A stretch of DNA of 21,488 nucleotides from positions 1-21,488 of the IMG/VR virus record IMGVR_UViG_3300014720_001565; one strand, written 5' to 3'. Below the pieces are notes generated by a model. That model worked only from the letters and a program-made list of their open reading frames with translations, searched no databases and was not told the origin of the DNA. The position numbers were made by a program, and so were the translations under genes. Source of the stretch: a virus. Below are positions 26 through 20,552 of the stretch, one piece after another (positions within the stretch are counted from its first letter, which is position 1; the number at the start of each line of letters is the position of its first letter).

Positions 26-712
26 ATGAATTTTACTTTTGGAATAATAAGTGATGGTAGCAATATAGATTATATTAATCAAGTTTTAGATAGTATAAAA
101 AAACAAAATATACCAAATTATGAAATTTTAATAATTGGAAATATAGAAATTAATAGGCCAAGTACTAAAGTAATAAACTTTGATGAAACAATAAAACAAA
201 ATTGGATTACAAAGAAAAAAAATATTATTACTGAGAATGCTACCTATGAAAATATAGTTTATATGCATGATTACCTTGTACTTGATGATAATTGGTATCA
301 AGGATACTTGAAGTATGGAAACGACTTTAAAGTTTGTATTAATAAACTTATCAATCCAGATGGATCAAGGTTTAGAGATTGGCTTGTCTGGCCCCACTCA
401 AATAACGAAATAGATAAAATAGTATTGCCTAATAGAGAGTGTTTAATTCCGTACGATATGATTCATTTAAATAAATATCAGTATATCTCTGGAAGTTTTT
501 GGGTAGCAAAAAAAAGTGTAATGTTAGAATTTAAACTAAATGAAGATTTAATACATGGACAAGCAGAAGATCTTGATTGGTCTTTTAAAGTAAGAGATAA
601 ATATAAATTTTCAATTAATGAATACTCTACAACTAAATTATTAAAGTTTAAAGATCCATTTTATAATATAACTAGCGAAGAAACTAATTTAAAATTAATG
701 GAGTTAAAATGA
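26..712 (+). CDS. GT2-like (GT-A fold) glycosyltransferase
   Basis: A 228-aa protein that probably transfers a sugar from a nucleotide-sugar donor to a glycan. The N-terminus (residues 3-40) has the alternating strand/helix pattern of family 2 glycosyltransferases. HDYLVLDDNW (81-90) sits where the metal-binding DxD motif is expected, and GQAEDLDWSFKVRD (about 178-191) resembles the downstream acidic ED motif. No signal peptide or membrane segment is visible, so it is probably cytoplasmic. The gene is much more AT-rich than its leftward neighbours and runs against them, with its own promoter, which suggests acquired cargo. Its stop overlaps the next ATG (ATGA at 709-712). The family call is by motif pattern; donor and acceptor cannot be read. 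Confidence 0.65.
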   Translation: MNFTFGIISDGSNIDYINQVLDSIKKQNIPNYEILIIGNIEINRPSTKVINFDETIKQNWITKKKNIITENATYENIVYMHDYLVLDDNWYQGYLKYGNDFKVCINKLINPDGSRFRDWLVWPHSNNEIDKIVLPNRECLIPYDMIHLNKYQYISGSFWVAKKSVMLEFKLNEDLIHGQAEDLDWSFKVRDKYKFSINEYSTTKLLKFKDPFYNITSEETNLKLMELK

Positions 713-3414: not shown

Positions 3415-3824
3415 TACTCGCCCTTTGGTAAAAGATTTTTAAGTTTGACTAAGTAAGTTTCTAAACTTTTCATTACAGTCTTATACTTTAAATCTTTAGG
3501 CTGATTGCTTTTTAGATACTCTATGTTATTATCTAAAAACTTTACAAAAGACTCAATTGTTTTTTGACTTTCTTCTATATACTTGAAAGCATGCTCTCTT
3601 GAATCGGATATAAACTTAAGAAACCCATCGTTAGATGAATCTTTTTCTTCGTTTGTAGTTCTGTCTTTATCTATATGATCTTTTAATATTACTTTATCAA
3701 TTTGTGATTGAAGCAAAGAAGCAATAAGATCATTATTTCTAAAGCGCAATCTTATATTCTTAAACAATAGAATAAGTATTGATGATACCAATATAAATGT
3801 TATTACTGTTTCAACGATTTGCAT
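3414..3824 (-). CDS. Membrane-anchored coiled-coil protein
   Basis: 136 aa. One N-terminal membrane helix (about residues 3-21, VETVITFILVSSILILLF) is followed by a basic patch (KNIRLRFRNN) and a long charged helical region to the end. The positive-inside rule suggests an N-out anchor with a cytoplasmic coiled coil. There are no catalytic motifs and I do not recognise the family. It overlaps the start of the zinc-ribbon gene and its own start lies inside the end of the gene at 3811-4290 (14-base overlap). Confidence 0.55.
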   Translation of the reverse strand: MQIVETVITFILVSSILILLFKNIRLRFRNNDLIASLLQSQIDKVILKDHIDKDRTTNEEKDSSNDGFLKFISDSREHAFKYIEESQKTIESFVKFLDNNIEYLKSNQPKDLKYKTVMKSLETYLVKLKNLLPKGE

Positions 3825-4290
3825 GTGTCACCCAATAATATTTACATGTAGAACAGCATGGCTGGTTGTATAAACTATATTTTGCATGGGCAAACTTAGC
3901 ATAATAAAGAGGATCTTTATCAAACAAACTTGCTTTGTGTGTAGTAATAAGGCGCATTATTTCATTTGTATTGCTTAAAAAAGAGGGAACTGTATCTCCC
4001 CAAGAATCCCAGCATTGGTCTTTAAGTCTATTAAGATTGGCTTCATTGTTCTCTGTTTTAATACCTCGATATTTTGCCTCACGAATCATGGCTTGAACAT
4101 ATTGCCAAAGTCCTCGCTCATAACCTTTCCACATAAGAACTGCAGGATGATTTCTCCAACCACCTGTAGGAGACTTGCCAGATAAAACATTAAGAATTTG
4201 ATAGCACTCAAGTATTTGTTTATTAAGACGCTTACTATCCAACCAACGAGCGGTTGTTACTGCATTTGTCGATGGCAAAAATGTTTGCAT
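3811..4290 (-). CDS. MSMEG_6728 / pyrimidine-dimer-glycosylase-like protein
   Basis: 159 aa. The N-terminus MQTFLPSTNAVTTARWLDSK, followed by RLNKQILECYQIL and GGWRNHPAVLMWKGYE (about 43-58), is the signature of the MSMEG_6728 family, which is linked to pyrimidine-dimer DNA glycosylases (Pyr_excise type). The family role would be excision of UV-damaged pyrimidines, but I have not confirmed catalytic residues. C-terminal CCSTCKYYW holds three Cys and may add a metal site. Its start overlaps the stop of the 44-aa gene upstream (TAATG, 4288-4292). Confidence 0.6.
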   Translation of the reverse strand: MQTFLPSTNAVTTARWLDSKRLNKQILECYQILNVLSGKSPTGGWRNHPAVLMWKGYERGLWQYVQAMIREAKYRGIKTENNEANLNRLKDQCWDSWGDTVPSFLSNTNEIMRLITTHKASLFDKDPLYYAKFAHAKYSLYNQPCCSTCKYYWVTHANR

Positions 4291-4793: not shown

Positions 4794-5240
4794 TTATCCT
4801 AACAGTTCAGCATAATCGGTACATATACCATATATGGTATCATAATCTACACCAGAACTCAAATCATTATCAACTAATATAGAAATTTTATCAACTTCTT
4901 TTCCAGGATAAGTCCATATATAATTATTATTTGTTAAGGTAAAGTCATCTGTCTGATGCCAAAAGAAATTAGAGTCATGATAGTGGTTAAATGCAAAATG
5001 CATTAAGGTTTTAAAATCTTTACAATGAAACCACGCTCTTGGCAATATTTTATTAAATTGATCTGGCCTAATTTCATATTGTGGCTCATCATGTCCAAAC
5101 CATATCTTTTCTCCATCAAACCAAACATCTACCTCAACATCATATCCCATTTTGATAGCCTGAATTAAATAATCTGGATCATTTTCAAAATCTGGGATAG
5201 GCCCTCTGGTATTGCCACGATGTGCTATTATTTTAGTCAT
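4794..5240 (-). CDS. GDPD-like (glycerophosphodiester phosphodiesterase-type) protein, short
   Basis: 148 aa. His7-Arg8 (IAHRGNT), Glu19, Glu36 and Asp38 (DVEVDVW) and His50 (FGHDEP) line up with the metal and catalytic residues of the GDPD TIM barrel, which cleaves glycerophosphodiesters. True GDPDs are about 230-300 aa, so this protein holds only roughly the first half of the barrel plus a divergent end. It may act in glycan or lipid-linked surface chemistry with the adjacent cassette. The ATG lies inside the end of the HAD-nucleotidyltransferase gene (8-base overlap). No ribosome site is visible, but a TATAAT box lies 7 bases upstream. Confidence 0.6.
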   Translation of the reverse strand: MTKIIAHRGNTRGPIPDFENDPDYLIQAIKMGYDVEVDVWFDGEKIWFGHDEPQYEIRPDQFNKILPRAWFHCKDFKTLMHFAFNHYHDSNFFWHQTDDFTLTNNNYIWTYPGKEVDKISILVDNDLSSGVDYDTIYGICTDYAELLG

Positions 5241-6597
5241 TAGATTTATTATATAGATAGTTTTGTAAGTCTTCTGGTGTACCTATACCCCACATATTTT
5301 TGACGGGTAAACCATAAATATGCTTACCATCTTCTATAGCCTCATTAAATACAGGACATACGTAGAACTCATTATTTACCCTGATATTTTTTGCTATCAT
5401 CTGTTCTGCATATTTAACAAAATCAGATCCGTGCTTCCAATAATAAATACCTACTGTAGCATTATCACTAATAGGTTTCTTCTCTGCTACCTCAGATACG
5501 ATGCCAAACTCATCCATCTTTGCATAAGACCATTTTGGATGATTAGATTTAAATATAGCCATGCCACCATCCGCATTTTTAGCATGAAGATCATATATAA
5601 ACTCTCTGCTACTCCAGTCAACTATCTGATCTGAGTTAGCCATTACTAACGGGGAATCGTTATTTATAAACTCCTTTGCCAATAGGGCAGTAACGGCAGC
5701 ACCTTCTGTAACCCCATCTACTTGAACAATATTACAGTTAGGGGTTATTGCATTAAGAAGATAATCAAGGCTATATTTTTCATAATGTTCTTTCTGTACT
5801 ATGTATGTATATGTTGCTTTAATTGCTAAATTTTCAACTACCGCCTGGATCATAGGCTTGCCCTGAACCTCAATTAAAGGCTTTGGGAAGGCGTATCCAG
5901 CGTCAGCAAACCTACTTCCTGCTCCAGCCATAGGTATTAGGACATTGAGACTTGATTCACTCCAGGAACCTTTTGATTCTTTTAACATTTTAATTGCCCT
6001 CTCTATTTTTTGAATATTAAGATCTTTTCTATTCTTAACTTCAATTAGATTTGCCTTGCTATCTGTTGCTGCTAACTTTCCGACAACACTATCTTCAAAA
6101 ATAACGACTTCATCTGCTATACATCCAAAATAAGAGATGGTCTTCCAGTATATTTCTGGATGAGGTTTTGGAAATTTTACATCTTCATTGCTTACTATGT
6201 GATCCATATACTTAATAATGCCTAACTTTGTTAAGCATTGATCAATAGTAGATCTGATACTATTGCTTGCAACTGCAACCTTTATGCCATTAGCCTTAAT
6301 TAAGTTACAAATTGTAACAAGTTCTTCGTCATATTCTACAGCATTTAACATTTCTTTTGTAAATGCCTGCTTGTTATCACTAATCTCATTATAAAATATT
6401 TCTGGCAAACCTTTATGCTGTGTTAGCATCTTTAATTTTAATTTAGTTGGTAGGCCCTCATATGTTTTTTCTTGTTCATCTCTTGTAATAACATATTTAT
6501 TATCTACAAGAGCAAGGGCTTTATTAAGAGCATTATAATGAATTTCTTTGCTATCTATTAATACCCCGTCTAAGTCAAAAATAATTAATTTTGTCAT
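5233..6597 (-). CDS. HAD phosphatase - sugar nucleotidyltransferase fusion
   Basis: 454 aa with two enzyme domains. Residues 1 to about 205 form a HAD phosphatase like beta-phosphoglucomutase: IFDLDGVLIDS (Asp8 nucleophile, Asp10), VAVASNS (108-113), KFPKPHPE (141-148) and VIFEDSVVGK (165-174). After a Ser-rich linker, residues about 217-454 form a nucleotidyltransferase: VLIPMAGAGSRF (219-230), FPKPLIEVQGKPM (237-249) and MANSDQIVDW (about 317-326). Such a fusion could dephosphorylate and then activate a sugar phosphate to an NDP-sugar for the neighbouring glycosyltransferases. The substrate is unknown. It sits 4 bases after the GT61-like gene and has only a weak ribosome site. Confidence 0.8.
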   Translation of the reverse strand: MTKLIIFDLDGVLIDSKEIHYNALNKALALVDNKYVITRDEQEKTYEGLPTKLKLKMLTQHKGLPEIFYNEISDNKQAFTKEMLNAVEYDEELVTICNLIKANGIKVAVASNSIRSTIDQCLTKLGIIKYMDHIVSNEDVKFPKPHPEIYWKTISYFGCIADEVVIFEDSVVGKLAATDSKANLIEVKNRKDLNIQKIERAIKMLKESKGSWSESSLNVLIPMAGAGSRFADAGYAFPKPLIEVQGKPMIQAVVENLAIKATYTYIVQKEHYEKYSLDYLLNAITPNCNIVQVDGVTEGAAVTALLAKEFINNDSPLVMANSDQIVDWSSREFIYDLHAKNADGGMAIFKSNHPKWSYAKMDEFGIVSEVAEKKPISDNATVGIYYWKHGSDFVKYAEQMIAKNIRVNNEFYVCPVFNEAIEDGKHIYGLPVKNMWGIGTPEDLQNYLYNKSND

Positions 6598-6601
6598 AAT
6601 T

Positions 6602-7618
6602 TTATTCCATTATAATTTTTCTTAAATTGTTATTTGATTTGATAATATCTATCAAATCTTTAGAATATCTACTCCAATTTGGGACACCAAAATAACAGTT
6701 ATGATTTGTATAAGATAGTGTTTGATATAAATGATGAATTGCCTCAACGCCTTCTGTAGACTTCTCATCTTCAGCCCAATTTCCAGTAATTAATCCCATA
6801 GGATATGTTGTAATAAATTCAACAACTGAAGTATTTTTTTGCATAAATAAAGCATTTGCAATACCAGAACTTGACAGCGAAACTAGAGTCTCGACCTCAT
6901 TCATATAGTTTAATTGTCCAAGAAAGTCGTCTTTAAATTTATGTTCTGGAATTATTACTTCAAAGCCGTTTTCTGCCATGAACGACTCTAGGATTTCTTC
7001 ATCAAAAAGCCTGTGGTCCATACTACAAGATAGACCATCTTTAATCCACTTATAATTTCTTGGCTCCATATGTTTTCTAGAAAGATATACTTTTCTAAAT
7101 GGCTTTACATCTTTGTCTGTAACGTATTTTTTAAAATGATCTTTAACTAAAGCAACATTTTCTGGTGTAACACAAAATCCATCAATTACAGTAAAGTTGT
7201 TTGCATAAATAACTTCTTTATTATCATATACTTCCCACTTAACACCAATGTCTTCTAATGACTTTAACATAAATTTATAATATGCTTCATCACGATCTGG
7301 TAAAATAGACATATCATTAATTATTACCGTAGAGTTTGGTTTAGATTTTAAAACATTTAATAAATGAGAAAAGCATTCAAAAAATAAATTATATAGCCCT
7401 ATATTTACCCACCAAAATATTTTATTGTCTTGTGACAACAAGGTTTCATTAGTAAATTTTTCATCTACTTTGCCGTAAAACTTTGAAATTTCTGCATTTG
7501 CTACTCTTATTTTATCTGGCTGATTAAAAAATATTTTATGAAGGCCATAGTAATCCTTAGAGTATCCTTCTCTATGATGTTGAGTATTTCTAACATCAGT
7601 AGCACTGACTTTTAGCAT
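6602..7618 (-). CDS. GT61-like glycosyltransferase (copy 1)
   Basis: 338 aa. The C-terminal half has the family 61/DUF563 pattern: VYLSRKHMEPRNYKW, then a GFEVIIPEHKF section and ETLVSLSSSGIANALFMQKN with STSVVEF-like sequence close by. This is the donor-binding region of capsule-type glycosyltransferases. The N-terminal half is divergent, as expected for the acceptor side. No signal or membrane segment is visible. It is a paralogue of the next gene and directly abuts it (stop at 7619, ATG at 7618), with an AGGAGAGG site inside that gene. It probably adds a sugar to a virion or host-surface glycan; this is inferred from its neighbours. Confidence 0.7.
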   Translation of the reverse strand: MLKVSATDVRNTQHHREGYSKDYYGLHKIFFNQPDKIRVANAEISKFYGKVDEKFTNETLLSQDNKIFWWVNIGLYNLFFECFSHLLNVLKSKPNSTVIINDMSILPDRDEAYYKFMLKSLEDIGVKWEVYDNKEVIYANNFTVIDGFCVTPENVALVKDHFKKYVTDKDVKPFRKVYLSRKHMEPRNYKWIKDGLSCSMDHRLFDEEILESFMAENGFEVIIPEHKFKDDFLGQLNYMNEVETLVSLSSSGIANALFMQKNTSVVEFITTYPMGLITGNWAEDEKSTEGVEAIHHLYQTLSYTNHNCYFGVPNWSRYSKDLIDIIKSNNNLRKIIME

Positions 7619-8632
7619 CTATACCTCTCCTCTAAGCAAAGGATGTAATGCTGGCGTGTTCTCAAACCTTTTAATAACATCTTCTGCTTTTCTTGTTTTA
7701 TTTTGAATTGAAAAATAATTATGATTTTTTATAAAAGATATTGATATATAGAATAAATGCAATGCCTCTTCAACCATATTTTTTTTGCCAGATTCTAATG
7801 GAACAACCATAGTGTTCATTATTTCAATAACATTACTTCCTGGCTGCATAAAAGCAGAACAGGTTAATCCAGAACTTGTCATAGAGATTACTGTTTTAGT
7901 TTCATAGAAGTGATTAATTTGATCTGCAAAAGTTTTAAAATCTTCTGGAACTACAATCTCAACCCCAAATTCTTTACTTAAATACTCTTCAAGTTTATAT
8001 TCATTAAACATTCTTGTATCATGATTGGTTGATGGACCACCATCCCAATCTGGAGTTTCCGTAACAAAACTGGAATAGTCTCGCTGTCCCATATGCCTTC
8101 TGCTAAGGTATATTGTTCTAAAAGGTTTTACATCTTTGTTAATAAAGTCATCTTGAAAAAATTCAAATAAATTATTAGCAGCGTTTGCAGAATTGTTATA
8201 TGTTTGTTTAAAATAAAAATTATTTGCATAAACAATGTCGCCTGGATTTGTTTTTAATATTTTAAAATCTATCTTTTTCTTTGTTAAGGTATTAAACCAA
8301 TGAGTTAGATATGTTTTATCAAAATCATACATAGCACTTGTGTCAAAGATAAACTGGGCATCTGGAAATTTCTTTATCATTTGTATTGCTCCACCTAGAG
8401 CATCATGTAAGAAATGATATGGTCCATTCATCAAAGAAACAAAAACCTTTATTTTATCTGAAACAAAGTTATAAGAATTAGCACGATCTGTTATATCCTT
8501 TTGATTAATCTTGGTAGGATGTAATTGAGTAAATCTTTCATAATTTTCTGGTACAAAAAACATTCCCAATCCATCAAATTTTTGATAATTGATAGGCTGA
8601 TGTCCAGTATACAATACTGATGTTGCTGTCAT
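7619..8632 (-). CDS. GT61-like glycosyltransferase (copy 2)
   Basis: 337 aa, same layout as the downstream copy: IYLSRRHMGQRDYSSF in the middle, FGVEIVVPEDFKTFADQI, then KTVISMTSSGLTCSAFMQPG and SNVIEIMNT. These match the conserved SRR...E..P...Q...SG..N..F..PG..V.E pattern of GT61. The two copies share motifs but have clearly diverged, so they may have different acceptors or linkages. A GGAAGGA site lies 8 bases before the ATG. It is the first gene of the glycan cassette, 4 bases after the WhiB gene. Confidence 0.7.
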   Translation of the reverse strand: MTATSVLYTGHQPINYQKFDGLGMFFVPENYERFTQLHPTKINQKDITDRANSYNFVSDKIKVFVSLMNGPYHFLHDALGGAIQMIKKFPDAQFIFDTSAMYDFDKTYLTHWFNTLTKKKIDFKILKTNPGDIVYANNFYFKQTYNNSANAANNLFEFFQDDFINKDVKPFRTIYLSRRHMGQRDYSSFVTETPDWDGGPSTNHDTRMFNEYKLEEYLSKEFGVEIVVPEDFKTFADQINHFYETKTVISMTSSGLTCSAFMQPGSNVIEIMNTMVVPLESGKKNMVEEALHLFYISISFIKNHNYFSIQNKTRKAEDVIKRFENTPALHPLLRGEV

Positions 8633-8636
8633 AATA

Positions 8637-8921
8637 TCATCCTTCCATAGTCAAAAACTGCCAAGTCTTTGCCCAACTCTGTTTATCCTTGTGGCTATTA
8701 AACTCTTTAGATATTATACCATTCTCTAAATAAATACCGCCCCAAACTCCCCATTCTTTTTGAGAAATGCCCACAGCAAAACAAATTTTTGCGACGGGAC
8801 ACTCAGAGCATAACTTATCTACTGCTGGTCTAATTGCTTCGTCTTCTTCATATTTATCAAAGAATATATTTGTGTCATATTCAAGACAAAGTGCGTTATC
8901 TTTCCATTTATGCTTGTTCAT
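8637..8921 (-). CDS. WhiB-family Fe-S protein
   Basis: 94 aa from the ATG at 8921; an upstream ATG at 8957 would add 12 residues and lengthen the overlap with the previous gene. Cys12, Cys38, Cys41 and Cys47 (LCSECPVAKIC) are the four [4Fe-4S] ligands, and GVWGG (58-62) is the WhiB turn that contacts sigma-A. WhiB proteins are found in Actinobacteria and their phages, where they bind RNA polymerase sigma factor; mycophage TM4 WhiB blocks host WhiB2. The C-terminus has few basic residues and no clear AT-hook or DNA-binding patch. It may reset host transcription during infection. Confidence 0.85.
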   Translation of the reverse strand: MNKHKWKDNALCLEYDTNIFFDKYEEDEAIRPAVDKLCSECPVAKICFAVGISQKEWGVWGGIYLENGIISKEFNSHKDKQSWAKTWQFLTMEG

Positions 8922-9132
8922 ATCTACCAGCGATCTTTTCTGGTATATTCCAGCCATTCCTGTCTGGTACGAATCGCTTAATCATAGCCCATTTACCATT
9001 GACCAATGATCCATGCTTAGATGTTCTAGCCTTATCGCTATGATAAAAATTTACCACAGTCCATCCGTCCCAATACAAATTTTTATTGTTCCTTACGATA
9101 TCTTCCATTGTTTCTAAATTTTTAATAATCAT
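8908..9132 (-). CDS. Small phage protein of unknown function (74 aa)
   Basis: 74 aa. LYWDGWTVVNFYHSD, GSLVNGKWAMIKRFVPD and GWNIPEKI give a beta-rich, Trp-rich protein that I associate with a recurring small actinophage family of unknown role. A strong AAGGAG site lies 7 bases before the ATG. The 3' end overlaps the WhiB start by 14 bases, so the two are probably co-translated. No metal motif, signal or membrane segment is visible. Confidence 0.55.
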   Translation of the reverse strand: MIIKNLETMEDIVRNNKNLYWDGWTVVNFYHSDKARTSKHGSLVNGKWAMIKRFVPDRNGWNIPEKIAGRYEQA

Positions 9133-11681: not shown

Positions 11682-12698
11682 CTACTTAATTTTGGCTATT
11701 TGCATCTTAGCAACCTTTAAAGCATTGCCAGATATAGATGCATATCCTTCTATCTTATTACACTTAGTAACAGCAAAGGTAAAGAAATCTTTCAATACCG
11801 CTGCTTTTTCTCCAGCATTGACATATGCAACCCCATATGCAAATGTGGAAATGTTGTAAGAGTTTTTAGATGGGCTACGATAGTTTAATGTAGCAGTTCC
11901 ATCTTGATTAAACTTTAAATTAGATAAGAAAGATGATGCTGCACCTATAGTTGGAGCCATAAATCTACCTGCTTCATTTTCAATTAATGCGCTTTTCATA
12001 CCACGAACATATGAAACTTCATTGTATGATATTGATCCAGGCAGGGTAGACTGAGTAAATGCAACTTGAGTAGACCCATTAACTGATTGGTAATAACCTA
12101 TATAGTCATTGATATTTCCTGGAAATGCTGTTGCAAATGTTTTATTTCCTGGCTTTGTCCATATTGTTGGAGCAACTGAATTAAGATATGATGTAAATAC
12201 TTCTGAAGTCCCAGACCCGTCAGATCTATACACAATGGTTATTCTCAATTTTGGAAGTTTGCCAGTGTTAAGTTTTTGAATTTCTGGATCATTCCATGTT
12301 GTAATTTGTCCAGCAAATATTTTTGCTAATACTTCTTTAGATAGTTTTAGTCTTGTTTTATATTGTGGAAGATTATATACAATTGCAACTGGACCTGAAA
12401 CTAAAGGCACATAAACAAAATCTTCTTTTGGTTTTGTATCGCTTATTCCATAAGGGGTATCTGATATTGCAAAGTCTACTAATTTATTATTAAAGAAATT
12501 ACGACCAGCACCAGATCCGTTTGGTGTGTAGGTTAAAATATTTCCAGTTTGTTTTGCATATAAAACTCTACATTGATCAACAAAGTTAGTAGAAAATGTT
12601 GATCCAGCACCTCTAAAGGATTCGTTAGAAACAGCAGGGGATATAGAAAAAATACTAGCAAATAAAACCAGTATTAAGATAATCGACTTTGATCTCAT
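11682..12698 (-). CDS. pstS: PstS-type phosphate-binding protein, secreted
   Basis: 338 aa. It starts with a signal peptide (MRSKSIILILVLFASIFSIS, cleavage likely near AVSNE). FRGAGSTFS, YTPNGSGAGRNFF and YRSDGSGTSEVF match the phosphate-contacting loops of the ABC-transporter periplasmic component PstS. The protein would capture phosphate outside the cell for the host Pst transporter; no PstC/A/B genes are present here. There is no clear lipobox Cys. The ATG at 12698 is favoured over the in-frame GTG at 12704 because a TAGTAT box lies 6 bases upstream, so it should be leaderless and transcribed separately from hsp20. Marine cyanophages also carry pstS, which helps phosphate uptake during infection. 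Confidence 0.85.
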   Translation of the reverse strand: MRSKSIILILVLFASIFSISPAVSNESFRGAGSTFSTNFVDQCRVLYAKQTGNILTYTPNGSGAGRNFFNNKLVDFAISDTPYGISDTKPKEDFVYVPLVSGPVAIVYNLPQYKTRLKLSKEVLAKIFAGQITTWNDPEIQKLNTGKLPKLRITIVYRSDGSGTSEVFTSYLNSVAPTIWTKPGNKTFATAFPGNINDYIGYYQSVNGSTQVAFTQSTLPGSISYNEVSYVRGMKSALIENEAGRFMAPTIGAASSFLSNLKFNQDGTATLNYRSPSKNSYNISTFAYGVAYVNAGEKAAVLKDFFTFAVTKCNKIEGYASISGNALKVAKMQIAKIK

Positions 12699-12704
12699 AT
12701 ACAC

Positions 12705-12809: not shown

Positions 12810-13229
12810 TTATTTGATTTTAATTGCTTTGGGCTTATTTTCTTCGGGGATGTTTCTCTCCACAAAGACGTTAAGAATACCGTCTGCCATTTCAGCACGA
12901 TCAACCTCCATATACTCTCCAAGAGCAAAGGTGCGTGTGAATTTGCGAGTCGCAATTCCTTTGTGAACCACTTCAGCATCAGTGACCTCTACGATTTCTC
13001 CCTTGATAATTAATGTTCCGTTATCTACAGAAACATCAATATCTTCTTTAGAGAATCCAGCAATAGCCAGAGATAACAAATATGTATCATCATCCAACTT
13101 TAATAAATCGTATGGTGGATATGACTTGTTGTGTGCTTCACGATGTACATTGTTAAGACGGTCCAACTCTCTGTTGAAACCAATAAAAAATGGATCCTTA
13201 AATAGATCCAATGCAAATGAACTTACCAT
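12810..13229 (-). CDS. Hsp20 / alpha-crystallin small heat-shock protein
   Basis: 139 aa. An alpha-crystallin domain runs from about residue 38 to 125: YPPYDLLKLDDDTYLLSLAI, GFSKEDIDVSVDNGTLIIKG and FTRTFALGEYMEVDRAEM, followed by the GILNVFVERNIPE edge strand. The C-terminal AIKIK is the I-x-I tail motif that docks into neighbouring subunits. The protein holds unfolding proteins in an ATP-independent way and may protect virion or host proteins late in infection. It has its own TGCTATAAT promoter (13286-13291) and a strong AAGGAGG site. Confidence 0.9.
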   Translation of the reverse strand: MVSSFALDLFKDPFFIGFNRELDRLNNVHREAHNKSYPPYDLLKLDDDTYLLSLAIAGFSKEDIDVSVDNGTLIIKGEIVEVTDAEVVHKGIATRKFTRTFALGEYMEVDRAEMADGILNVFVERNIPEENKPKAIKIK

Positions 13230-13291: not shown

Positions 13292-13295
13292 GCAG

Positions 13296-13367
13296 AGCCT
13301 TCGGTCAGGATTGAACTGACGACTTTCCGCTTACAAGGCGGATACTCTACCACTGAGTTACGAAGGC
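13296..13367 (-). tRNA. tRNA-Thr (TGT)
   Basis: Cloverleaf with a GCCTTCG/CGAAGGC acceptor, an anticodon stem TCCGC/GCGGA and a CTTGTAA loop giving anticodon TGT (reads ACA). The T-arm loop carries TTCAATC. CCA is not encoded. It lies 1 base after tRNA-Glu. Confidence 0.93.
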
Positions 13368-13368
13368 G

Positions 13369-13440
13369 TAGCACTAACGGGAATCGAACCCGTCTTTCCG
13401 CCGTGAAAGGGCGATGTCCTAACCGATAGACGATAGTGCC
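13369..13440 (-). tRNA. tRNA-Glu (TTC)
   Basis: Acceptor GGCACTA/TAGTGCT with a G-U first pair, anticodon loop CTTTCAC giving TTC, T-arm GGGTTCGATTCCC. CCA is not encoded. It lies 1 base from tRNA-Thr and 3 bases after the HNH stop, so it is probably cut from a shared transcript. Confidence 0.93.
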
Positions 13441-13443
13441 AAA

Positions 13444-13782
13444 TTAAATATTTATAGACCTCATGTAGGTTCTATGCCTATGACAATTTGAACAAACCAA
13501 TTCGCATTTTGGAATTTCTTCCAACAACTGAGACATGGTTCCATTTCTAACTATTTGATTAATACCAGACTTTTTTATACCTCTAACATGATCAAAATCT
13601 AACATGTGTGGCGGATAGGAAACATTACAATCTGGACAGACAGAATTATTTAACTTATAGTTTAAAACATATAAGTTTCTTTCGTTTCTTTTATCCTTAC
13701 TTCTTTTTATGGTTATGGCTGTATTTCTTTCATACCAGGCTTTCTTTGCAGCCTTTTCCTTAGCAGGATCTTTATATGGCAT
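13444..13782 (-). CDS. HNH endonuclease (copy 2), tRNA-adjacent
   Basis: 112 aa. The ATG at 13782 is chosen because AAAGGAG lies 5 bases upstream; the longer frame from 13857 would run through tRNA-Asp. Basic N-terminus (MPYKDPAKEKAAKKAWYERN), then Cys49/Cys52 (CPDC), LDFDH (61-65) and LVCSNCHRHRTY (95-106) with Cys97, Cys100 and His101. It shares DFDH and CSNCHR with the HNH at 11287-11562. Position between tRNA-Asp and tRNA-Glu is typical of free-standing homing endonucleases. The target site is not known. Confidence 0.85.
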   Translation of the reverse strand: MPYKDPAKEKAAKKAWYERNTAITIKRSKDKRNERNLYVLNYKLNNSVCPDCNVSYPPHMLDFDHVRGIKKSGINQIVRNGTMSQLLEEIPKCELVCSNCHRHRTYMRSINI

Positions 13783-13798
13783 ATTAACTCCTTTCAAG

Positions 13799-13872
13799 CG
13801 ATCCGTATGGAACTCGAATCCATGACCTCTACCGTGACAGGGTAGCGTTCTAACCAACTGAACTAACGGACC
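13799..13872 (-). tRNA. tRNA-Asp (GTC)
   Basis: Acceptor GGTCCGT/ACGGATC with discriminator G, anticodon stem CTACC/GGTAG and a CTGTCAC loop giving GTC, T-arm ATGGATTCGAGTTCCAT. The 5' end is 9 bases after a TATACT box (13882-13887), so it has its own promoter. CCA is not encoded. Confidence 0.93.
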
Positions 13873-13881
13873 AACCCTTAT

Positions 13882-13887
13882 AGTATA
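13882..13887 (-). promoter_or_regulatory. -10 promoter for tRNA-Asp unit
   Basis: Minus-strand TATACT abuts the DoxX-like stop and lies 9 bases before the tRNA-Asp 5' end. It would drive tRNA-Asp, HNH, tRNA-Glu and tRNA-Thr. Confidence 0.45.
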
Positions 13888-14250
13888 TTACAAAGTTGTA
13901 ATTAATACAAGGACCATACCAAGCAGTGAAAGATTTTTGAAGAATGAAATTCTATCCATTTGTTTGGCATTTGGATCATTAATCTGCCAATAATTATGAA
14001 ATAGAATACATGTCAAAAATAAAAAGACTGCCAAGGAAATTAATGCTGCCATTTCCCAAATTCCCAGTATAAATAGAATTGGTGCTACAATTAACACTAA
14101 TCCTGAAACAACTACTCCAAGTTCTGCTAAAGGCATTCCCTTAGATCTTGCATAAACAACATTTACATCTTTATACTGAAAGTGTGATCTTCCAGCATCT
14201 AAAAACAAAGCACCAAAAAGAACTTTGCCTATTATTGCTATGATTTCCAT
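13888..14250 (-). CDS. DoxX-like membrane protein
   Basis: 120 aa with four predicted membrane helices (about 3-16, 46-64, 67-85 and 102-119). The N-terminal IGKVLFGALFLDAGRSHF section with its Arg-Ser-His is the DoxX/DoxD signature. Family members associate with redox or membrane-damage functions but the role in phages is not known. An AAAGGAGATAAT site precedes the ATG. It lies between tRNA-Asn and tRNA-Asp. Confidence 0.65.
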   Translation of the reverse strand: MEIIAIIGKVLFGALFLDAGRSHFQYKDVNVVYARSKGMPLAELGVVVSGLVLIVAPILFILGIWEMAALISLAVFLFLTCILFHNYWQINDPNAKQMDRISFFKNLSLLGMVLVLITTL

Positions 14251-14280
14251 ATTATCTCCTTTTGAAACATATCTGTTTCG

Positions 14281-14353
14281 CTGGTCTGGTAGGACTCGAA
14301 CCTACGACCTAGGCATTAACAGTGCCCCGTTCTGCCAACTGAACTACAGACCA
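14281..14353 (-). tRNA. tRNA-Asn (GTT)
   Basis: Acceptor TGGTCTG/CAGACCA with discriminator G, anticodon loop CTGTTAA giving GTT, T-arm GTAGGTTCGAGTCCTAC. The first 10 bases of the tRNA overlap the last codons and TAG stop of the subtilase gene on the same strand. CCA is not encoded. Confidence 0.93.
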
Positions 14354-15690
14354 AGACTCTTGCATAACGCAGACCTACTCTTAGAAGAGCAAATTACCTT
14401 AACCTTTTTTAAGATATCAGAATTTTGCTTCTTAACAAGTTCTAGTTCTTTCATTAATGCATCTTGCTTATTAACCAATGTAGAATTTATTTTATTAGTA
14501 TCTTCTATCTGATTGATTAAATCTTCTACTACATTTTTACTTTTTACATTTTCAATTTTTGTAATTGAAAGTTCTAATTTTAATGTAGCAATTTCAGACT
14601 TTAAACTATTTAACTCCTGCGAATTTGATAATGTAGAATTAGTTGTAGACTTTTTTTCTACTACTTTATTAGAATAAGAGTTTGTCTGTAAAGCCTTAAT
14701 ACTACTAGGTATATCTAAAATAGGTAATTGAGAATAAATTAAATCGTCTACGTAATTACTTGATGTCATTAAAGATTTCTTTATTTCATCAAAAGTTGCA
14801 TTTGGCTTTACTTGTTTTAAAATAGCAACAGCACCTGCAACTACTGGTGCAGCAGAAGATGTTCCTCCGCCAATCCAATAGCCATCTGAATTAGCACTAG
14901 CCCCTAAAACTGTTGCTGGCGCAATGACAGAGATCTCTTTAGATATATCAGAGTAAGATTCTATAGATCCACTTTCATTTGTAGCACCCACGGCAATTGC
15001 ATGCTCGTTACATGCTGGAAACATTATCTTAGTAAATCCGCCATTATTACCAGCAGCAGCAATAAATGGAATATTGTTATCCCTTAACTTTTTAAGTCTT
15101 TGCGAGATATCGGTTATATTAGGGCAATAGTTAGGATTATTTCTATCACCTAAAGAACCAAGACCAAAACTTCCGTTAACAGCAGCAATGTTATATTTAT
15201 CCTTAATTGACAAAATCCAATCAAGTGCTAAAAGAATTCCCTCGTGATGTCCTGAATTATTATTTATAGAAATTAATTTAGCATCTGGAGCAATTCCTCC
15301 TGGGAAAATACCAGGTAACTTATTTCCAGCAGCAATAGATCCTACTAAAGTTCCGTGTTCTAAAGTTCTACCAGATGGCTCTTTGACTGCTGCACCAGCA
15401 GCAACTCCAGACTTCTTATAATATTCGCCACACTTTTCTCTTGATGAACAATATCCATCAATTACACGATCTTTAAAGGCTGGACTAGAAAGCAAAAATC
15501 CATCATCAATAATAACTATGACCTGACCTTTGCCTGTATATCCCATCTTATGCGCTTCTGGCAATCCAATCAAAGCATGAGACCTATTTGTTTTTTCAAT
15601 TTGTGATTGATCAACAACGGGCTGATTTGCATATGACGGAATTACATTTAATCCAACTAATGCAATTAAAACAACAATAATTTTTTTCAT
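14344..15690 (-). CDS. Secreted subtilase (S8) with coiled-coil tail
   Basis: 448 aa from the ATG at 15690, which shares bases with the stop of the gene upstream (ATGA) and follows AAGGA by about 10 bases. The longer frame adds 17 residues without signal. The N-terminal signal peptide (MKKIIVVLIALVGLNVIPSYA) is likely cut before NQ. The triad is Asp62 (VIIDDG), His112 (LEHGTLVGS) and Ser278 (GGGTSSAAP), with oxyanion Asn215 (AAAGNNGG). After the catalytic domain (about 45-325) comes a long heptad-rich coiled coil (about 355-430) and a short C-terminal end with two Cys. It may cut host surface proteins or mature phage structures; the target is unknown. Confidence 0.85.
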   Translation of the reverse strand: MKKIIVVLIALVGLNVIPSYANQPVVDQSQIEKTNRSHALIGLPEAHKMGYTGKGQVIVIIDDGFLLSSPAFKDRVIDGYCSSREKCGEYYKKSGVAAGAAVKEPSGRTLEHGTLVGSIAAGNKLPGIFPGGIAPDAKLISINNNSGHHEGILLALDWILSIKDKYNIAAVNGSFGLGSLGDRNNPNYCPNITDISQRLKKLRDNNIPFIAAAGNNGGFTKIMFPACNEHAIAVGATNESGSIESYSDISKEISVIAPATVLGASANSDGYWIGGGTSSAAPVVAGAVAILKQVKPNATFDEIKKSLMTSSNYVDDLIYSQLPILDIPSSIKALQTNSYSNKVVEKKSTTNSTLSNSQELNSLKSEIATLKLELSITKIENVKSKNVVEDLINQIEDTNKINSTLVNKQDALMKELELVKKQNSDILKKVKVICSSKSRSALCKSLGL

Positions 15691-15893
15691 GAAATAAATA
15701 TCCTTAGTACGTGCTCGCATGGGTCGCCTCCTGCTTCCCATTCTTCTAACTCTTCTTCACTCATATATTGCATGCCACCATCGTGCGTGTGGCAATAAGG
15801 TTCGCTTATCCAGCCTCTCTCGATACCGTTAGATAACCAGATGCCAAATTCCTGCTCCTCTGGAGACAGATCTTCCATACCCATATGATTCAT
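15687..15893 (-). CDS. Small acidic phage protein (68 aa)
   Basis: 68 aa, Glu/Asp-rich. PYCHTHDGGMQYMSEEELEE and GGDPCEHVLRIFI are conserved-looking sections I associate with a small actinophage family; Cys34/His35/His37 and Cys59/His61 could bind zinc. The function is unknown. The ATG at 15893 is 6 bases after a TATACT box, so it should be leaderless; the ATG at 15884 is an alternative. It leads the subtilase unit. Confidence 0.65.
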   Translation of the reverse strand: MNHMGMEDLSPEEQEFGIWLSNGIERGWISEPYCHTHDGGMQYMSEEELEEWEAGGDPCEHVLRIFIS

Positions 15894-18017: not shown

Positions 18018-20552
18018 TTATAACCTCCTTAGTGACATAACTGAACTAACTATATTAGATACTATAATTACTGGAATAACCACTTCTTGAACCTTTTCTC
18101 TTTGGTCATCCGTCATATCTTTACCCCATTCTGATGGGTCTAAAACCTTTTCAAGATCTACATTTAAAATTGCACCAATTGGATCTGCTAAAAATTGATC
18201 TGTCTGAATCTCAGTAATAGCGTCTGCTAATGTATATGGCATTGGAGCATCTACATTTTCTGCAGCCTTTTCTTCAAATGTTATTATTGCTACAGCAATA
18301 GCCAAATTTTCTTTTGCAGTTTCTCCAAGTTTAAGAATATCATCTACACTAACTCCAAAACCTTTAGCAACTTCTATCTTTGCCTCTGTAGATAAGGCAG
18401 ATAAGGTTTGTCCAACAGCATACATTTGTTCTTTATTTAATTCAATAACTTTATTATCCTTACTTGTTAGGTTTGATATTACTCTTGAAAGATCTTCTGC
18501 AGTACCCTGACCTTTTTCTGGTATTAGTTCTTCTATGTTACTATTGTCTGGTGATGGTTCTTCAGAAGGTTCGGCAGGAGTTGGCTCTGGTTCAGGAGTT
18601 GGCTCTGGATCTGTATCCGTTGGCTGAGGTGAAGGTTCTGGTGAAGGCTCAGGAGTGGGCGAAGGCTCAGGGGATGGAGTTGGCTCTGGTTCATCAGTTG
18701 TATCAGGGCTTGGAGAAGGACTGGGTTCTTCTGGTTCAGTGGGTTCAGGAGTTGGCTCAGGAGTAGGAGTTGCCTCTTCCGTAGGTTCTGGAGTGGGCTC
18801 TGGGGTAGGCTCTGGAGTAGGCTCTGGGGTAGGCTCTGGAGTAGGCTCTGGGGTAGGCTCTGGGGTAGGCTCTGGGGTAGGCTCTGGGGTAGGCTCTGGA
18901 GTAGGCTCTGGGGTAGGCTCTGGGGTAGGCTCTGGGGTAGGGCTAGGTCCTGGACTGGGTTCTGGTGTAGGTTCTGGAGTGGGCTCTGGGGTAGGCTCTG
19001 GGGTAGGCTCTGGCGTTGGTTCAGGGGTAGGCTCTGGCGTTGATTCAGGGGTAGGCTCTGGCGTTGATTCAGGGGTAGGTTCTGGCGTTGATTCAGGGGT
19101 AGGTTCTGGCGTTGATTCAGGGGTAGGTTCTGGCGTAGGCTCTGGGGTTGGTTCAGGTGTGGGTTCAGGCGTAGGCTCTGGGGTTGGTTCAGGTGTGGGT
19201 TCAGGCGTAGGCTCTGGGGTTGGTTCAGGTGTGGGTTCAGGCGTAGGCTCTGGGGTTGGTTCAGGTGTGGGTGTGGGTGTGGGTTCTGGGGTTAGTTTGG
19301 GTTGAGGCTGATTAGCAAGAGCAGCAGCAATGGCTGCAGCAATTCTTTGAGTTTCCTCAAATTGCCATCTTTGTTCATATTCATACCTTGCATTATTAAT
19401 AGCAGTTTGTAAATCTAATATGGCCTGATTATATGCCTCTTCAGAATTTTGTTTAAGAATTAATGCATTTGCTGTATTTGATACAGCATTATTGTGCATA
19501 GTAGTTTTAGTAGAAAGTGTTTGATTATATGTAGTTAAAGTTGAATTGGCTGAATTATATATACTTACTTTTGTATTGTAATCTTGTTGAGCCAAAAACT
19601 GAGCCTCTTGAGCAGCAATAAGTTCTGGTGCTATAATTGGTATTTCTGTGGACAATACAGAACTAGGAATTACCTGCCATCCATTACCAATATTCCATTG
19701 TAAAGATCCGTTGGCCCCTCCTCCATTTTCATACCACCAAACTTCAATTGGAACCCATTCATTACTATCCATATAAAAGCCATTTGGCAATCCGCATTGT
19801 CCGCCACGATCTACCCAATTATTAATTACAGTTAGTCCGTTAATAACTAAAACCATACCATCATCACCACAAGTTCTAAACTGTGGAGTCCAATGCTGTG
19901 TTTGTTTTATGTACCCAGTCCATCTAATTTGATAATCATCATATAATCCTGCGGGGCCTCCAGTTCCAAAATTAAAATTTATTGTAGACCAAGGACCCAT
20001 TGACATAGGCTGTTGACCGCATCCAAAAGGAGGGGATACATTATAATCATTCCAATATGTATAACAATCATATAAAAATGCATTAAGTCCAGGCTGTCCT
20101 GTTATTGGGTATTGAGATTGTACTGAAGCAAGATTTATATTTGCTATATCTAAAACATCTTGTGCATTATTTTTATTTTGCAGAGCCAAATCAGTAGTTA
20201 CCGTTTGTCCATCTACCACAGATTGTGCTAATATTTTTTCTTCAAGTGCCGTTTCTTCTGCCGTAACTGTATTATTGTAGGATTCTAATATACTATCTTT
20301 ATTTTCTTTTGACTCTACCGCTTCATCATACTTATCTTCTGCAATACTTATAAATTCTTGCGTTGGACCCTTATATACTAAATTATTAATATCTTGATTA
20401 AGTTGTTGTATATCTGCATAAGCCTTAGTAAGGGGGTCAGACTGGGCCTGTGAAACGCCCATAAATAACCATCCAAAGGCTAATATTATCACTAGGGGTA
20501 TTCTTAATAATGCGTTTTTAATTTCCCTTCTCCCTTGTGCATTATTACACAA
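18018..20552 (-). CDS. Exported PA14-domain protein with PEPT-repeat stalk
   Basis: Up to 844 aa. Residues 12-36 form a signal peptide, probably cut at VSQA|Q. A coiled-coil helix (about 38-150) leads into a PA14-type beta-barrel (about 155-300) with [10 protein letters not shown], which carries the Asp-Asp pair, and [15 protein letters not shown]14 domains often bind carbohydrate. A second helix (about 305-415) leads to a Pro-Glu-Pro-Thr stalk (about 417-668) and a C-terminal domain (about 672-844) ending in a hydrophobic helix ([18 protein letters not shown]). It may be a surface adhesin or fibre. The start is uncertain: TTG at 20552 is the first start-like codon and there is no ATG before the signal. 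Confidence 0.7.
18555..19305 (-). repeat. 12-base PEPT tandem repeat array
   Basis: Tandem 12-base units, each coding Pro-Glu-Pro-Thr on the minus strand, with Ser (PEST) and Ser-Pro variants. Blocks differ by synonymous changes, so the array is hierarchical: a 24-base super-unit at 19021-19140 and a 36-base super-unit at 19141-19248. It keeps frame throughout. Confidence 0.9.

Follow-up and report, generated by a model that had tools for sequence, protein, structure and literature searches.

We have found that a gene for a small protein resembling glycerophosphodiester phosphodiesterases (GDPDs) is a near-constant neighbour of one family of sugar-phosphate nucleotidyltransferases (NTases), in phages and in bacterial chromosomes alike. 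The stretch of DNA analysed here, referred to as the window, is the entire IMG/VR virus record IMGVR_UViG_3300014720_001565 (21,488 bases, possibly a genome fragment). In it the NTase is fused to a HAD domain and lies in a leftward run with the GDPD-like gene and two glycosyltransferase genes of family GT61. The initial annotation had taken these genes for one cassette, but the conserved unit is the HAD-NTase fusion with the GDPD-like protein rather than the entire cassette; the GT61 genes are variable and occur in only about 10 of 86 fusion loci. This partnership between the NTase and a mini-GDPD is a stronger and less expected finding than the earlier outline of sugar activation, which is plausible. 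The module likely supplies a surface glycan with its nucleotide-activated donor. The literature that we searched, with incomplete coverage, held no paper on the HAD-NTase fusion or on its pairing with the GDPD-like protein.

The pairing emerges from searches begun at either partner. Around the fusion we compared 86 loci (the best 80 fusion matches, the window and five deposited cyanophages); several viral loci are near-duplicates, and locus counts here and below are not counts of independent events. A GDPD-like gene lies near the fusion, on the same strand and within a few genes, in 78 of the 86, the window included, most often directly downstream with an overlap of 4 or 8 bases; in seven of the eight loci that lack it the contig ends within 2.2 kb downstream. 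The second most frequent neighbour family reaches 45 of the 86. When the viral scan was anchored on the GDPD-like gene alone, an NTase of the family appeared in 71 of 79 loci (48 HAD-fused, 23 not), and for six of the remaining eight a contig end is no more than 700 bases away; of 21 contigs from bacteria or archaea in the corresponding cellular scan, 19 had such an NTase near the GDPD-like gene. Among 297 SAR11-family genomes, the GDPD-like gene is present in ten, a match to the NTase profile in 11 and both in nine, and in all nine the two genes are adjacent, GDPD-like first (hypergeometric P of about 1e-14, ignoring phylogeny), as a bare two-gene unit in the chromosome. Because it recurs in independent searches, the pairing is not due to chance. 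The initial annotation had counted the GDPD-like gene in the cassette, which stands, but had given it no role, and it is to be seen instead as a strict partner of the fusion.

The genes in question are laid out in the window as follows.

4794..5240, minus strand: GDPD-like protein, 148 aa, a mini GDPD barrel; PHROG_34507 (3.1e-27)
5233..6597, minus strand: HAD-NTase fusion, 454 aa; HAD_2 and PHROG_3980
5974..6597, minus strand: C1-cap HAD domain, fusion residues 1-208; beta-phosphoglucomutase/hexitol phosphatase group
5236..5961, minus strand: NTase domain (fusion residues 213-454), with conserved motifs; nearest structure 4evw
6602..7618, minus strand: GT61 glycosyltransferase A, 338 aa; PF04577 (8.2e-11, 42.7 bits)
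7619..8632, minus strand: GT61 glycosyltransferase B, 337 aa; PF04577 (1.5e-16, 61.3 bits)
26..712, plus strand (opposite to the cassette): GT2-like protein, by family membership; 63% to L081

The coordinates of the open reading frames (ORFs) bear out the four-gene leftward run proposed for 4794-8632, with its gaps of 0-4 bases or overlap: the GDPD-like gene and the fusion overlap by 8 bases, the fusion and GT61 A are 4 bases apart, and GT61 A and B abut with a gap of 0. The four gene identities likewise held, through Pfam, PHROG and an AlphaFold model of the GDPD-like protein. The run extends upstream, across a 4-base gap, to a WhiB gene and downstream, across a 3-base gap, to an 80-aa ORF.

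In the fusion, the full set of HAD catalytic residues and the principal NTase motifs are preserved. HAD_2 matches fusion residues 5-185 (Pfam, 2.4e-28), and the catalytic residues D8, D10, S111, K144, E168 and D169, which make up a complete set of HAD motifs I-IV, are invariant in 22 sequences. Structures matched in the PDB are MtlD phosphatase, TM_1254 and beta-phosphoglucomutase (beta-PGM), and the profile matches include hexitol and mannitol phosphatases. The NTase half matches PHROG_3980 (3.9e-73) and, weakly, Pfam NTP_transf_3. It has the GxGxR/PKPL signature and the fold of sugar-phosphate nucleotidyltransferases, the conserved motifs being GAGSRF..FPKPLI..GKPMI, NSDQ, EFYVCP..N and GTPEDL, and its nearest solved structure, 4evw (Foldseek E 6e-18), was deposited as a nucleoside-diphosphate-sugar pyrophosphorylase. 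The AlphaFold model of the whole fusion has a pLDDT of 87. Relatives of the fusion occur in at least 596 viral loci, the best 80 at 57-86% identity over essentially the full length.

The same NTase family also occurs beside the GDPD-like gene in other arrangements. In L112, L114, L132 and others, GT61-bearing actinophage-type contigs among them, the NTase carries at its C-terminus a capless HAD of acid-phosphatase/PNKP type; in Bellamy, SynMITS9220M01, L101 and L121 it is fused to RpiB and neighboured by a PfkB-type kinase and a KdsC-like HAD; and in L100, L116 and L161 HAD and NTase are separate neighbouring genes. That differing HADs occur at either end of the NTase is the best evidence that the HAD step and nucleotide activation probably belong to one pathway. 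A gene for a cupin-like protein of some 107 aa adjoins the NTase and GDPD-like genes in 20 of the 79 GDPD-anchored viral loci; it was seen in L112, L122, L132, L140, L151, L101, L109 and L110, mostly with unfused NTases among the loci read. We note that two deposited annotations look wrong: Bellamy gene 206, a 'phosphatase' (L088:3169-4326), is an NTase-RpiB, and S-SM2 gene 207, a 'phosphoheptose isomerase' (L087:7690-8001), is a small HAD by Pfam. The label of S-SM2 207 (and, by similarity, Bellamy gene 212) had hinted at a heptose pathway; it was dropped on that account.

The GDPD-like protein is predicted to be a complete yet very small GDPD barrel. Its AlphaFold model (pLDDT 96.7, pTM 0.91) has the GDPD barrel fold, built of roughly eight strands with few helices. 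In VIA alignment 140 of the 148 residues matched solved GDPDs, with a Z of 11.2 to 1o1z, and the 33 top rows (Z 7.5-11.2) are GDPDs, phospholipases D and related proteins; Foldseek with the same model gave nothing better than E 5e-3, and at E<=1 Pfam returned no match, to PF03009 or otherwise. Invariant H7, R8, E36, D38, H50 and K74 match what we take, from motifs, to be the GDPD active-site pattern (HRG, E-x-D and HD motifs), and the third acidic metal-ligand position appears, on motif rather than structural grounds, to be an invariant His72. A profile comparison with the GDPD UgpQ spans residues 3-52 only.

Around this module the transferases form a variable layer. Both GT61 proteins score above the PF04577 cut-off of 27 bits, and they are 27.5% identical to each other. 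A recent tandem duplication is ruled out by their separate counterparts in L004: A pairs with L004_7430 (tree support 87/88) and B with L004_6420 (95/96), so the pair is older than the split of these phages. GT61 genes are nearly confined to actinophage-type relatives, in which the order is largely kept (WhiB, one or two GT61, HAD-NTase, an extra gene in some, GDPD-like) while the number and sequence of the GT61 genes vary and change fast. Sequence conservation is far higher in the fusion than in the GT61 proteins, a difference that a constant donor and varying acceptors would explain. The GT2-like family of the 26-712 gene lies near the fusion in 32 of the 86 loci, often as the gene immediately before it; the protein itself has no Pfam match. 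Carbamoyltransferase genes are present in the actinophage-type relatives L003 (341-1774), L006, L009 and L013 (Pfam-tested in L003 only), and might mean that the glycans there are carbamoylated.

As to where such a glycan would sit, the initial annotation had named virion or host. In L002 the GT61, fusion and GDPD-like genes lie between tail-fibre/collagen-like genes and genes of head-decoration/tail-fibre families, a gene order that favours virion decoration; the window alone decides neither. Cyanophages carry the module within long runs of epimerase and glycosyltransferase genes, and the isolated SAR11 chromosomal copies suggest that it can also serve the cell's own surface. The suggestion that the glycan is sulfated was not borne out. 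The protein encoded at 2087-2776 has just a P-loop-like motif, recognised by eye; it matched no Pfam sulfotransferase profile, the 3'-phosphoadenosine 5'-phosphosulfate-dependent family included, and has no relative in the PDB or among the viral contigs. Sulfotransferase-like motifs recur in L003 and L013, with Pfam scores under the cut-off.

We think it somewhat more probable than the reverse that the locus is a donor-making module with variable transferases that act on a surface glycan. The HAD-NTase would, most likely by stripping a second phosphate, prepare the 1-phosphate of a sugar (or polyol), which its NTase half would couple to a nucleotide. Because the GDPD-like gene follows the NTase everywhere, its product may work on the same compound or on one built from it, our best guess at the chemistry being phosphodiester hydrolysis or transfer. 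Both GT61 proteins, possibly joined by the GT2-like protein, would then apply the donor to a surface glycan of the virion or infected host; that the two copies add one sugar at two positions, as the initial annotation proposed, is conjecture. What the data show are intact active sites, the predicted folds and the linkage of the NTase and GDPD-like genes; the order of steps, the nucleotide-sugar product and the target we infer. The idea of dephosphorylation followed by activation keeps its footing in the intact active sites and the unrelated HADs that accompany the NTase.

Several points weigh against the scheme. Its substrate, nucleotide and product are so far predictions from sequence. While D323 is invariant, the position that presumably corresponds to the second metal-binding Asp of RmlA-type enzymes appears to be Gly437, although the compared homologues share the loss. 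Divergence of the GDPD-like protein is only moderately correlated with that of the NTase (Mantel r 0.26), the value for the HAD being 0.41, and the L002 fusion is 86% identical to the window's while the L002 GDPD-like protein is only 48% identical; the partners can therefore apparently be exchanged, and L002 does not support strict co-transfer of the two. Finally, no PfkB, GHMP kinase or RpiB is encoded in the 20 records with the fusion (five complete cyanophage genomes, the rest possibly partial), which leaves the source of a bisphosphate unexplained; a PfkB-type kinase is present in 3 of 3 records without the fusion.

The HAD half can accordingly be read in two ways, as a phosphatase acting on a host-supplied bisphosphate or as a beta-PGM-like mutase that obviates a kinase. 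With a mutase, the fusion alone would turn a sugar 6-phosphate (or 5-phosphate) into the 1-phosphate and this into the nucleotide sugar, which we consider unlikely, if less so than the three alternatives in the next paragraph. The missing kinase favours it, as do H20 and K76, invariant in 22 of 22 sequences as in L. lactis beta-PGM, with the distal-phosphate Ser also kept; the bare two-gene form in SAR11 fits as well. However, R49 and W24, which in beta-PGM serve phosphate and sugar (PMC9171722), are replaced and not conserved, and the TIGR01990 beta-PGM equivalog score is 78.2 bits against a cut-off of 189.4. (The numbered residues of the beta-PGM reference were checked by script against a list of known active-site positions, most of them named in PMC9171722 and PMC11283535.) MtlD phosphatase is among the closest structures, and the capless HADs that recur with the same NTase in other phages, unlikely mutases, favour a phosphatase.

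It is improbable, to our minds, that the product is instead a nucleotide-activated polyol or other phospho-alcohol, giving a phosphodiester-linked group that the GDPD-like protein trims or recycles as GlpQ-type enzymes do with glycerophosphodiesters. GDPD-type chemistry and the hexitol and mannitol phosphatases among the HAD matches would suit such a product, but the adjoining GT61 transferases are glycosyltransferases, not phosphotransferases, and by its motifs the NTase belongs with those acting on sugar 1-phosphates. Viral ugpQ genes have been described as auxiliary metabolic genes for phosphorus acquisition (PMC10987575), one cyanophage GDPD-like copy is annotated as a glycerophosphoryl diester phosphodiesterase, and the window has a PstS gene; that the GDPD-like gene is a ugpQ-like gene of this kind, here by coincidence, is nonetheless very unlikely, given that in phages and SAR11 alike it is linked to the NTase family and that an invariant His apparently takes the place of the third metal ligand. 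We give least credence to a donor for DNA base hypermodification. Phage glycosyltransferases can modify DNA (PMC12619734; PMC12838424), but we recognised no enzyme of base modification in the window, the module stands alone in SAR11 chromosomes, and in cyanophages it lies amid sugar epimerase and glycosyltransferase genes.

Alongside the donor-making scheme, we tentatively raise a further idea, which we regard as possible but doubtful: phages of cyanobacteria and Actinobacteria and some SAR11 may have in common a so far undescribed pathway to a nucleotide sugar (or phospho-alcohol), in which the mini-GDPD would be dedicated to a step other than glycerophosphodiester hydrolysis. If so, any viral copies read as phosphorus-acquisition genes would be misannotated.

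Elsewhere in the window, a WhiB-like gene (8637-8957) lies directly upstream of the GT61 pair, an order repeated in the closest relatives, and an MSMEG_6728/pyrimidine-dimer glycosylase-like protein is encoded at 3811-4290; together these two genes suggest a phage of Actinobacteria. The PstS-type phosphate-binding protein gene (11682-12704) is followed by an Hsp20 gene (12810-13229), four tRNA genes (Thr, Glu, Asp and Asn; minus strand, 13295-14353) and a Subtilase-family protease (14344-15741), whose closest NCBIfam model is mycosin, with a score under the cut-off. An 844-aa protein (18018-20552) combines a PA14 domain with a long PTPE repeat; the long ORFs facing it on the plus strand (18464-19305) probably mirror that repeat.

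Phage surface glycans influence adsorption, host range and recognition, and donor synthesis by phages is poorly understood. At least hundreds of aquatic phage contigs carry the module, which also occurs sporadically among SAR11 genomes. The several independent arrangements of HAD and NTase, which share one NTase family and one mini-GDPD, point to a single common donor. Small viral GDPD genes should be checked for an adjoining NTase before they are labelled as phosphorus-scavenging genes. Compared with GDPDs (PF03009, UgpQ/GlpQ), the GDPD-like protein shares the barrel over 140 residues and the HRG, E-x-D and HD motifs, but it has 148 aa against at least 217 for the listed solved GDPDs, escapes Pfam, apparently has HCK in place of E-x-K and is linked to an NTase gene. 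The NTase has the fold and N-terminal signature motif of sugar-1-phosphate NTases of the RmlA/GlmU/4evw type, from which it differs in its fusion to a HAD and, apparently, in the Gly at the presumed second metal Asp position. In the ADP/GDP-heptose pathway (isomerase, kinase, GmhB phosphatase, NTase) a HAD phosphatase likewise feeds an NTase, and the RpiB/PfkB/KdsC-like phage variant has all four kinds of step; the window, however, lacks the isomerase and kinase, its HAD is of C1-cap beta-PGM type rather than GmhB type, and the GDPD-like protein is extra. Among phages of Actinobacteria, phage-encoded glycosyltransferases are known from mycobacteriophage virion glycosylation, as far as the work is cited in PMC12619734. 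The window shares such glycosyltransferases with those loci but, judged from its genes, its phage also seems to encode synthesis of the donor.

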